A program made the translations under genes and the position numbers. A DNA stretch of 64,000 nucleotides from Sulfitobacter noctilucicola (GTDB lineage: Bacteria > Pseudomonadota > Alphaproteobacteria > Rhodobacterales > Rhodobacteraceae), in the NCBI RefSeq assembly GCF_000622385.1, contig NZ_JASD01000008.1, forward strand, positions 1,116,001 through 1,180,000, read 5' to 3'. Of the stretch, positions 7,126 to 24,967 are shown in pieces (the first letter of the stretch is position 1; the number at the start of each line of letters is the position of its first letter). Under the pieces are notes generated by a model. That model did not search any database, was not told where the DNA came from, and saw only the letters and a list, made by a program, of their open reading frames with translations.

Positions 7126-7299
7126 CGTCCGCCAATTCTGTTGGGATTCGCGCAATTCGCACGGTCTCTGCGGCCATACTTAGAGCACGCGAGCCGATTT
7201 GCGCCAGCCACTGTGCGTTTTGTGCTTCTTTAGCGTCGCAAATCAAACTTGCTAATGTTCGGGTAAAATGCGAAGCCTTAGAAGCTTGGTGTCCCGATG

Positions 7300-7504
7300 C
7301 ATGAACGGTGTTTATGCGGGACCTAACAGGGAATTCAGTCAAGGCGTCCGCGCCCCAAGCTGAAGCCGCCCCCGCGACTGTAAGCGGTGAGCCCGACCCG
7401 ATATGCCACTTGTCGCAAGATAGGGAAGGCGGGAAAAGGCCACGACCCGCGAGCCAGGAGACCTGCCAGGCAAACGGAACATAAAGGTCGTCGGGTGTGA
7501 CGGC
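7300..7504 (+). ncRNA. Cobalamin (adenosylcobalamin) riboswitch
   Basis: Leader of the cobalt uptake and cobalamin genes. It shows the conserved core in order: GCGGGACCTAACAGGGAA (7316-7333), AAGCTGAAGCCGCCCCCGC (7357-7375), CTGTAAGCGG (7378-7387), GCCACT (7405-7410), GGGAAGGCGGG (7423-7433), and the B12 box GCCAGGAGACCTGCC (7453-7467). Downstream, GTCGTC and GACGGC can pair as a 6-bp hairpin (7487-7504) that ends directly against the AAGGAG ribosome site of cbtB. This suggests control of translation initiation rather than, or besides, transcription. Ligand binding is expected to shut off cbtB and the downstream genes. Confidence 0.95.
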
Positions 7505-23169: not shown

Positions 23170-23598
23170 TCAGGTATCCGGATCGACCTTGCCGCGCATC
23201 GCCTTAACCTCACCGCGTACCTTTTTCGCCTTCAGCCGCCGTTTCTTTGACCCGAGGGTAGGGCGTGTTGCGATGCGCCTTTTGGGCGGGGTTAGTGCTT
23301 TTGTTATCAGTTCGGCCAGGCGCGTGCGGGCAATATCACGGTTGCGGGCCTGACTGCGGGTTTCGTCACATTGGATGACCAACGCCCCTTCGTTCGTCCA
23401 GCGCCGTCCAGCCAACCGGCGCAAGCGGGTCTTGACCGGTCCAGGCAACGAGGGCGAGCTTGCCGCTTCAAAACGCAACTCGACTGCTGACGATACCTTG
23501 TTTACGTTCTGACCGCCCGGTCCCGAGGCGCGCACAAACTGCTCCGTGAGTTCCCAGTCCTGAATGCTGATTGTGTCATTGATCCTGAGCATGTCCAT
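23170..23598 (-). CDS. arfB: Alternative ribosome-rescue peptidyl-tRNA hydrolase ArfB (YaeJ)
   Basis: Rescues ribosomes stalled at the end of truncated mRNA by hydrolysing peptidyl-tRNA. The 142-aa protein has the class I release-factor core with the catalytic GGQ motif (RASGPGGQNVNKVSS, near residue 28). It ends in a long basic tail (RRLKAKKVRGEVKAMRGK) that probes the empty mRNA channel, as in ArfB. It lacks codon-recognition domains, which rules out RF1 and RF2. The start is ATG 23598 or, matching the usual MLRI opening, ATG 23592. Convergent with cobF and divergent from the SpoIIAA-like gene. Confidence 0.93.
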   Translation of the reverse strand: MDMLRINDTISIQDWELTEQFVRASGPGGQNVNKVSSAVELRFEAASSPSLPGPVKTRLRRLAGRRWTNEGALVIQCDETRSQARNRDIARTRLAELITKALTPPKRRIATRPTLGSKKRRLKAKKVRGEVKAMRGKVDPDT

Positions 23599-23668
23599 AA
23601 CATCGCATTGGAACCGACAGGTGTGAAGAGGGGTTCAACCGATGAGACAGATAAAGAAAGGCTCCGAA

Positions 23669-24055
23669 ATGCTGACCCTTCCCTCCATCCTGCAAATCGC
23701 GACATCACGCGAGGATTTGCACGCCTTCCGGATCACCGCCGAGGTCTCCCGCGAGGATATGACTGCCATGGCAGAGTACATGAACACGGTCTTTGACCGG
23801 CCCGGAAAAGTAGACATGCTGATGATCTTTGATCGCTACGAAGGTGCTGAAACCGGTGCTTCGCTGAGTTGGGAGGCGCTTAAGTCGCGGTTCAAGTCTA
23901 TCAGTAACGTCAATCGCTACGTGGTCGTCGGAGCGCCGCAAAGGGCCCAAAATTTGATCGAAGTGATGGACAACCTTTTACCCGTAAAAGCAGAAACTTT
24001 TGACGAAGAACTGGCCGCGTGGCGGTCACTGAATGCCGAAGCGACGGGTGCCTAA
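23669..24055 (+). CDS. SpoIIAA-like (STAS-related) protein
   Basis: A 128-aa cytoplasmic protein matching the SpoIIAA-like family (PF11964 type), a STAS-like fold. Alternating strands and helices are visible: LHAFRITAEVSREDMTAMAEYMN, then VDMLMIFDRYEGAETG, SLSWEALKSRF and NRYVVVGAPQRAQN. The conserved pattern of a strand ending in D-R-Y-E-G, followed by a W-containing helix, is typical. Some relatives bind lipids or nucleotides, but no function is established here. The ATG at 23669 follows AAAGG; the frame is open 27 nt further back. A strong hairpin begins 11 nt after the stop. Confidence 0.75.
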   Translation: MLTLPSILQIATSREDLHAFRITAEVSREDMTAMAEYMNTVFDRPGKVDMLMIFDRYEGAETGASLSWEALKSRFKSISNVNRYVVVGAPQRAQNLIEVMDNLLPVKAETFDEELAAWRSLNAEATGA

Positions 24056-24065
24056 GATTCGAAAA

Positions 24066-24091
24066 GGGCCGCCCCGGTAACGGAGCGGCCC
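24066..24091. terminator. Strong hairpin, probable bidirectional terminator
   Basis: GGGCCGC (24066-24072) pairs with GCGGCCC (24085-24091), extended by CCG/CGG inside and closed by a GTAA loop. On the minus strand the stem is followed by TTTT (24065-24062), so it fits an intrinsic terminator best for reverse-strand transcription coming from the candidate microprotein unit. It may also end the SpoIIAA-like transcript, 11 nt upstream on the plus strand. Confidence 0.6.
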
Positions 24092-24119
24092 AATCGAATG
24101 GTTTACGGAGGTGTGCCGG

Positions 24120-24220
24120 TTAGACCGACGTCCACTTCAGGTTATCAACTGCCAAGGGCTGCCCTAGCAGGATACCTCCAAAGCTGTTCCGACACCTCGC
24201 TCCAATACCTTTCTTGACAC
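24120..24220 (-). pseudogene. Candidate microprotein gene with a 1-nt frameshift
   Basis: A GTG start (24220-24218) lies 7 nt after GGAGG inside a 15-nt stretch (24221-24235) fully complementary to the 16S rRNA 3' tail. As written, the frame gives MSRKVLERGVGTALEVSC and stops at 24164. The adjacent frame then reads GGILLGQPLAVDNLKWTSV and stops at 24120-24122. Adding one G in TTGGAGG near 24179 would join them into a coherent 33-aa protein. A terminator-like hairpin follows 29 nt later. So this is either a decayed small gene, a sequencing error, a programmed frameshift, or an 18-aa leader peptide. Function unknown. Confidence 0.4.
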
Positions 24221-24235
24221 TGGATCACCTCCTTT
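24221..24235 (-). promoter_or_regulatory. Exceptionally complete Shine-Dalgarno sequence
   Basis: The minus strand reads AAAGGAGGTGATCCA, pairing without a gap to the last 15 nt of a typical alphaproteobacterial 16S rRNA. It ends directly at a GTG codon, giving 7-nt spacing from GGAGG. No other gene in the window has more than about 8 such bases. This implies strong translation, or ribosome trapping, of whatever small frame follows. Confidence 0.7.
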
Positions 24236-24346
24236 ACATTTGTTGAACTCAATCTGAGGGTTGCACAGATTTCTGAACAGTCAAAGCGTTTTTTACCCCT
24301 CAGGCAAAAACGTCGCAGGCGATGATGTGAAAAGTTGCAGTCCGTC

Positions 24347-24967
24347 TTAAGCTGTGCGCAGCAGGCGCGCGGTGAGCAGGCGAAACGGGATCAGCGCGAT
24401 TAATGCAATCGACAGCTTTACCGCCCAATCCGCCACAGCCAGGGAAACCCAAAGAGGGGCGACGGGACCGGAGCCCAGCAAGGGCAGCGCCTCTGACGCC
24501 CAGGACACATCAGTGGCTGCGTGAATAAAGCTTAACGCGCCGGAGAACGCGATGGAGAAGAACAGGATCGTATCCAGCGTGGAGCCAACCAACGTGCTGA
24601 CCAAAGGTGCACGCCACCATGCACCCGACCGCAAGGCTGCGAAGACGGACACATCAATCAGTTGTGCCACCAGAAACGCGACGCCAGAGCCGATCGCGAT
24701 GCGCACCGTGACCAGCGGGCCGAACTCGCCCATAATCTGCGTCCCGATCAACGAGCAAATCAGACCGACCACAAAGCCGACCAACACAACCCGCCGTGCG
24801 GCTGCAGTGCCATAGACGCGGTTCATTACATCCGTGACCAGAAAGGCCAGCGGATAGGTAAACGCGCCGTAGGTGAGCCAGTTGCCGTAGAGAAACTGTA
24901 CAAGGATATTGGACGCCACAACGATAGTGGCCATGGCTAGGATGCCGGGGAGGGTAGTGCGTGTCAT
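24347..24967 (-). CDS. yhhQ: Queuosine precursor transporter YhhQ (VUT family)
   Basis: Inner-membrane transporter that takes up queuosine precursors such as preQ0 and preQ1 for tRNA modification. The 206-aa protein has about six helices. It contains the family's signature LVQFLYGNWLTYGAFTYPLAFLVTDVMNRVYG near the N-terminus (QF, then the T-x-P-LAFLVTD-x-NR-x-YG pattern). FVVGLICSLIG and STLVGSTLDTILFFSIAF follow, the latter with the conserved polar D-T pair. The leader of about 90 nt upstream shows small hairpins but no preQ1 riboswitch I can recognise. The 3' end faces the candidate microprotein unit across about 110 nt. Confidence 0.92.
   Translation of the reverse strand: MTRTTLPGILAMATIVVASNILVQFLYGNWLTYGAFTYPLAFLVTDVMNRVYGTAAARRVVLVGFVVGLICSLIGTQIMGEFGPLVTVRIAIGSGVAFLVAQLIDVSVFAALRSGAWWRAPLVSTLVGSTLDTILFFSIAFSGALSFIHAATDVSWASEALPLLGSGPVAPLWVSLAVADWAVKLSIALIALIPFRLLTARLLRTA

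Follow-up and report, generated by a model that had tools for sequence, protein, structure and literature searches.

CC2171 is reportedly one of the Caulobacter sRNAs of Landt et al. 2008. In the excerpted literature, its Rfam family RF01867 stands as a table entry without an open reading frame (ORF). In the same genus, Shine–Dalgarno (SD) sites are given as absent at 75.4% of genes (PMC4117421), and the excerpted text of Schrader et al. 2014 describes ncRNA regions as not translated, except for two earlier predicted ncRNAs that are translated. In Hadjeras et al. 2023, 33% of the 54 translated sORFs that lack an annotation fall on annotated sRNAs, and the excerpt on Sinorhizobium meliloti gives the peptide SEP1 (23 aa, pI 4.18) the top translation efficiency among non-annotated sORFs (PMC10117765). 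For UpsM of Rhodobacter sphaeroides, about one read-through in 100 is described (PMC5089854, in excerpt). Among the literature matches listed, supplements aside, the excerpted texts hold no description of the ORF presented below or of an arfB leader.

Here we describe a locus on the minus strand of a 64,000-nt stretch of Sulfitobacter noctilucicola DNA (G000:C8:1116001-1180000; hereafter the window). We read it as belonging to an RNA gene spread across the Alphaproteobacteria, with RF01867 as the curated core and this locus in the Rhodobacteraceae branch. Its product would be a structured transcript of ~190 nt, serving as a small mRNA and probably also as a regulatory RNA gated by translation. 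Taken whole, this explanation seems to us about evenly poised between right and wrong.

The RNA gene and its distribution

The gene (~190 nt) lies at 24286-24062 on the minus strand, and BLAST recovers it in 35 of the 36 genomes of the genus, counting its own. In the remaining 34, matches begin at query positions 44-98, so that some omit the promoter region, which is still conserved in an alignment of 30 genus loci. There the upstream block (24250-24286) opens with CTTTGAC (24286-24280), continues with CTGTGCAAC and is a probable promoter. Among 385 class genomes 32 contain an exact 20-nt pattern, as do 66 of 149 in the family, and the reversed pattern is in none; together with the BLAST block, this places the unit far beyond chance. 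In many relatives of the Rhodobacteraceae branch (group B; e.g. L069, L078, L082 and L092), a −35-like TTTGACA is followed by ACACAAAATCTGTG or a near-match, a CACA-n5-TGTG inverted motif that is perhaps a regulator site.

Comparison of relatives shows that an upstream block, an SD core, a start codon, an ORF of fixed length (of other lengths in other families), a fold and a terminator hairpin are conserved. The 5' leader GAGTTCAACAAATGT (24236-24250), seen in alignments of relatives, is of a kind (CAACAA-type) that is frequent among relatives throughout the class. It is followed by the extended SD (24220-24235), and the minus-strand sequence here, AAAGGAGGTGATCCAG, is the reverse complement of CTGGATCACCTCCTTT, present in both 16S loci returned by a search of the organism's own genome. 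This complement to the 16S tail takes in the first base of the GTG start and, at 16 nt, is one longer than the 15-nt perfect match reported in the first-pass annotation. The start at 24220 opens the 18-codon ORF MSRKVLERGVGTALEVSC (24164-24220), which ends at TAG 24166-24164, as that annotation had it. The GGGCAGCCC hairpin (24156-24164) overlaps the stop codon and belongs to helix 5 of the covariation test; we read its loop as CARY type, and a similar motif sits inside the ORF in many relatives from other families. Next comes the segment UCUAACCG (24117-24124), of which UCUAA is predicted to be unpaired and CCG is part of helix 3; it is invariant in 30 of 30 genus sequences and less so in a wider set. 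The internal anti-SD CACCUCC (24107-24113) has GGAGGUG, within the SD, as its predicted pairing partner.

The terminator (24062-24091) consists of the hairpin GGGCCGCTCC...GGGGCGGCCC at 24091-24066 followed by TTTT, both noted at first pass, and corresponds to helix 7 of the covariation test. Within 24040-24400, no sigma-70 promoter and no terminator came up in a consensus scan; the hairpin is followed by 4 T only, against the tool's minimum of 5. The claim of a real minus-strand unit is borne out by the near-unique SD, an ORF that evolution appears to treat as translated and the terminator hairpin.

Window positions 24245-24065 match RF01867 (Caulobacter 'sRNA' CC2171) over positions 1-159 of the 159-position model with 43.1 bits (E 4.7e-8), below the gathering cut-off of 75 bits. 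The match is unique at E<=0.001 in the 4.09-Mb genome. By sequence comparison, the locus is a divergent relative of RF01867. The sole Rfam gathering match in the window is a cobalamin riboswitch at 7270-7484 on the plus strand (117.2 bits).

The family filed as a Caulobacter sRNA is far wider than the Rfam cut-off admits: of 385 class genomes, 13 are above the cut-off vs 85 at E<=0.001. Of 14 named genomes used as controls, Caulobacter vibrioides alone has a match, and 6 of 20 loci pass as RF01867 at Rfam's own threshold. A covariance model built here from 64 sequences of the Rhodobacteraceae branch (R1) has matches in 137 of the 149 family genomes (at a single place in 135) and in 73 of the 385 class genomes, matches that lean to the 64 sequences from which it was built; 62 class genomes are common to R1 and RF01867, 11 are found by R1 only and 23 by RF01867 only. 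Each model recognizes loci of the other, and the two overlap in place (e.g. G354:C47 and G047:C1). The RNA gene is usually single-copy.

In named genomes the exact pattern occurs in at least 118 stretches; among the matches listed, 108 are Alphaproteobacteria by their titles, 5 are titled 'Proteobacteria' or 'Pseudomonadota' only and 5 are Gammaproteobacteria or kin. Three contigs titled Gammaproteobacteria (L145, L164 and L173) carry alpha-type RNA copies and are possibly misnamed bins. Two others (L119 and L154, titled SAR92 cluster and Cellvibrionales) carry AAAGGAGGTGATCCAGTGTCTA, after which CACTGG can pair with CCAGTG and a GGGAGCC...GGCTCCC-TTTT hairpin comes next, a short gammaproteobacterial look-alike. 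In five further loci (L035, L112, L143, L155 and L199, three of them Azospirillum), a similar leader and SD open ORFs of 55-59 codons instead of a tiny ORF, with an N-terminus that we read as signal-peptide-like.

Fold and neighbouring genes

The consensus of an alignment of relatives (A2) has 40 pairs, 23 of them with two-sided changes: 9 in the terminator (helix 7, 9 of its 10 pairs), 12 in helices 4-6 and 2 in helix 3. Paired cells reach 93.6% vs 87.2% in shuffled alignments and double changes 206 vs 68, counts that related sequences can inflate; none of 500 shuffles reaches any of five covariation measures, and sliding the pairing partner reduces all five. Helices 1 and 2, which involve the SD and the start codon, have no two-sided changes in this alignment, partly because their bases hardly vary, and this counts against our preferred explanation. 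In helix 1 (SD:anti-SD), 97.3% of cells are paired, with one-sided changes only.

In the predicted fold of the window RNA, which has a minimum free energy of -75.7 kcal/mol (z -3.26), GGAGGUG and CACCUCC form a helix and a hairpin contains the start codon. Relatives were compared in two sets: 64 sequences chosen by the exact SD/start pattern plus a peptide regular expression (one having been dropped for want of a terminator match and one as a duplicate), and 60 of the 71 family matches without the exact pattern, the other 11, mostly weak, being left out. Predicted pairing of the SD to the <=60 nt before the terminator exceeds that of mononucleotide shuffles in both, at 19.4 vs 12.5 in the 64-sequence set (55/64 in their own top 5%) and 17.8 vs 12.6 in the 60-sequence set (33/60). 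A closing helix between the ORF start and the bases before the terminator was assessed by a swap test, terminators having been located by script in 152 of 176 sequences. Own sequences surpass swapped ones in groups A (15.92 vs 15.0), C (13.07 vs 11.73) and 'other' (14.05 vs 10.92), and group D is at the edge (14.38 vs 13.83). In the Rhodobacterales group the helix failed the test (11.74 own vs 12.03 swapped).

Upstream of the RNA lies a gene for a Vut_1/YhhQ-type transporter (24347-24967, minus strand; PF02592, E 2.4e-27), and the next gene on the same strand is arfB-like, with an RF-1 domain (23170-23598, minus strand; PF00472, E 8.9e-24); a SpoIIAA-like gene (23642-24055, plus strand; PF11964) stands between the RNA and arfB. 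The gene yhhQ is directly upstream on the same strand at 64 of 70 group-B loci and at 30 of 30 top family loci (two of them from genomes already in the 70), and arfB is downstream on the same strand at 62/70 and 27/30, respectively; the misses are partly missing sequence because some loci are short. SpoIIAA-like homology is present at 5 of the 70. With arfB starts extrapolated from homology, the gap between terminator and arfB is ~10-140 nt in 46 of 54 loci and 345-950 nt in 8, and at the four closest loci 17-21 nt, read by eye, separate the hairpin from the arfB ATG. In the window the gap is ~460 nt and includes the opposed SpoIIAA-like gene.

A rival reading is a 5'-leader sRNA of arfB like UpsM, also from Rhodobacteraceae and, in the excerpted text, acting in this way (PMC5089854): the RNA promoter would drive arfB, most transcripts would terminate and constitute the sRNA, a few would read through, and translation of the leader ORF would tune the outcome. 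We consider such a leader possible, if rather doubtful. The short gaps and the frequency of arfB downstream speak for it, but the long gaps, the opposed gene in the window and the near-absence of arfB elsewhere (any arfB match at 2 of 106 loci of other groups, where yhhQ is found at 0 of 106) speak against it, and leaderless arfB transcripts may also arise from a promoter of their own. Nor is there an antiterminator signal: the terminator's 5' arm pairs upstream with a probability of 0.603 vs 0.645 in mononucleotide shuffles (n=62), and a transcription attenuator with an antiterminator was rejected on this ground. A general leader of one gene was likewise rejected, downstream strands being divided 83 vs 79 among loci with a downstream ORF, under crude ORF calling.

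Outside the branch the neighbours are mixed (20 proteins at 16 loci; one RF3, one RNase R-type, otherwise unrelated families or none), and since they share no common function, arfB cannot be the general target. The word 'leader' in the first-pass annotation is apt in a sense that the sequence alone could not reveal, since in Rhodobacteraceae the RNA mostly lies directly before arfB; in the window a gene intervenes. That the RNA is intact in the window despite this gene argues for a function of its own.

The 18-codon frame and its Shine–Dalgarno

In the 64-sequence set, the frame is closed directly after codon 18 in 63 sequences (42 TAG, 12 TAA and 9 TGA); elsewhere within the first 40 codon columns, in whichever frame, no column has more than 19 stops. 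Because the set was pattern-selected, its start codon and codons 2, 6, 7, 10 and 11 are partly conditioned, and the stop is not. The only sequence to lose the codon-19 stop (L004:1498-1690, plus strand) also has an altered anti-SD (ACACCTTCGG), with arfB ~640 nt off. In the 60-sequence set, the ORF has 18 codons in 53 cases, 20 in three and 12, 17, 23 and 24 in one each. Counted from the first G of GGAGG, the start codon is 12 nt downstream in 52 sequences, 11 nt in 4 and 10 nt in 4, and the fixed stop is kept although the SD-start spacing shifts by 1-2 nt. Further away, among 40 RF01867-found loci (a chosen part of the 85 genomes; 38 outside the family and 2 within), a start codon is present in all, in 39 by script and in L219 by eye, one base earlier; these ORFs have 18 to 35 codons, plus one of 55, and that of L219 likewise has 18.

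Silent changes predominate at Ser2, Leu6, Arg8 and Gly11 in the 64-sequence set; at codons 4 and 5 the encoded amino acid differs among relatives, which counts against our preferred explanation. In the 60-sequence set, the synonymous fraction of one-step codon pairs is 0.29 in frame vs 0.19 and 0.23 in the other frames over codons 2-12; over codons 13-18 it shows no silent-change excess (0.25 in frame vs 0.28 and 0.26). Hence, judged from these alignments, ORF length is conserved more than ORF sequence, and codons 13-18 lack conservation at the protein level, unlike the RNA fold, which is conserved. The frame itself looks genuine, with translation and its length, but not the peptide end, apparently under selection. 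A conserved ORF within a conserved structured RNA, one mark of a dual-function sRNA, is present here, although translation is here something that we infer from conservation.

A small mRNA that exists for the sake of its 18-aa peptide would account for the fixed ORF and for the modest silent-change excess at codons 2-12. We nevertheless think it distinctly unlikely, as the excess stops short of codons 13-18, the peptides of other families look unrelated and the conserved codons fall together with predicted helices.

The complement to the 16S tail would also suit an abundant RNA that acts as a decoy, parking 30S subunits by its full anti-SD match. Its 13-mer AAAGGAGGTGATC has three occurrences in the 4.09-Mb genome, i.e. 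the one here and two antisense to the 16S tails. An antisense 16S fragment was ruled out, because the locus shares only the tail complement and the remainder is a conserved gene. Across relatives the SD core is conserved and its 3' half is variable: in the 60-sequence set, GGAGGTGATCC is intact in 10, 32 carry a single G-U change within it and 18 have a shorter complement. The ribosome titration suggested at first pass may occur, yet 53 of these 60 keep the 18-codon ORF. The interruption or loss of the extended part in 50 of 60 also counts against our own preferred explanation. For a decoy, which would have no need of a fixed stop codon and whose SD is predicted to be sequestered, it makes the case very improbable.

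The first-pass annotation had noted that the neighbouring frame continues to its own stop, and the −1 frame GGILLGQPLAVDNLKWTSV is indeed there. It had further proposed that one added G restores a 33-aa protein, or that a programmed −1 frameshift produces it. Neither fits the relatives, which stop at the same codon 19 with TAG, TAA or TGA. Followed from the suggested slippage point, their −1 frame reaches the claimed end in no more than 9 of the 30 genus sequences, or 12 of the full 64, and meets a stop immediately in two; the indels in the alignment of relatives come after the zero-frame stop. The 'GQPL' of the −1 frame arises from a conserved RNA motif, GGCAGCCC, and many relatives of other families have a similar motif that the zero frame translates, close to the ORF end, as EQPL or EQPS. 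This suggests that the stop has shifted its position relative to a conserved hairpin. A frameshift or sequencing error was thus ruled out by the conserved zero-frame stop and the unconserved −1 frame, and a 33-aa product is hardly credible, despite the 19-codon open −1 frame in the organism's own genome and its equal length in those 12 of the 64 sequences.

Working model and comparison with known systems

We propose that (i) in the resting RNA the internal anti-SD CACCUCC would hold the SD, with the start codon in a hairpin; (ii) the unusually long complement would let a 30S subunit open this fold; (iii) the ribosome would then travel a fixed distance and halt at the codon-19 hairpin; and (iv) in doing so it would melt the helices formed by the ORF and set free the 3' half of the RNA, including the anti-SD. 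The output would lie at the RNA level and report on translation, the peptide itself being of little weight. Translation, switching, this RNA-level output and read-through into arfB are steps that we infer. The explanation draws support from the RF01867 and R1 matches, the fixed stop, the start codons of the RF01867-found loci, the silent changes, the covariation, the SD:anti-SD pairing and the gene order yhhQ, RNA, arfB. Further points against it are the swap test in Rhodobacterales, the lack of an antiterminator signal, the lost stop of L004, the mixed neighbours outside the family and the description of Caulobacter ncRNA regions as not translated. Some read-through is likely because the RNA is usually the segment before arfB in Rhodobacteraceae, and arfB would then be partly transcribed in this way where the gap is small.

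A bolder version would make the RNA a class-wide riboregulator that gauges ribosome availability: the mimic of the 16S tail would hold the SD, displacing it would require a free 30S subunit with long complementarity, one round of translation over the fixed ORF would free the anti-SD onto other mRNAs, and rescue by arfB would be the wired output in Rhodobacteraceae. We judge this unlikely. The family matters because the conserved tiny ORF that it carries offers a simple, testable case of translation controlling RNA in Alphaproteobacteria, with a link to ribosome rescue, through arfB, in one family, Rhodobacteraceae.

Among the closest described RNAs, RF01867 CC2171 aligns over its full length, shares the CAACAA-SD-RUGUC start and places its terminator at the same end. 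It differs in body and peptide, and is listed in the excerpted source as an sRNA, with no ORF mentioned there. UpsM resembles the window RNA in being made by termination before a downstream gene and in having a leader sORF, but according to the excerpted text it precedes mraZ and its sORF spans the terminator (PMC5089854), whereas the ORF described here ends well before the terminator and the RNA precedes arfB in most family genomes examined, though not directly in the window. In rnTrpL/peTrpL of Sinorhizobium meliloti, an attenuator-type RNA with a 14-aa ORF is called dual-function (PMC10117765, PMC7298713, both in excerpt); rnTrpL is a leaderless tryptophan attenuator, whereas the window RNA has an extended SD and no conserved codon run was seen in it. 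SEP1 is, like some members of the family, a short acidic peptide, two Devosia members having 23 aa and pI 4.05, and the likeness is a lead only. Lastly, the extended SD of Staphylococcus aureus also pairs to near the start codon; as excerpted, it occurs in many mRNAs (PMC13009471), whereas the one here has almost no counterpart in its genome and belongs to a single RNA.
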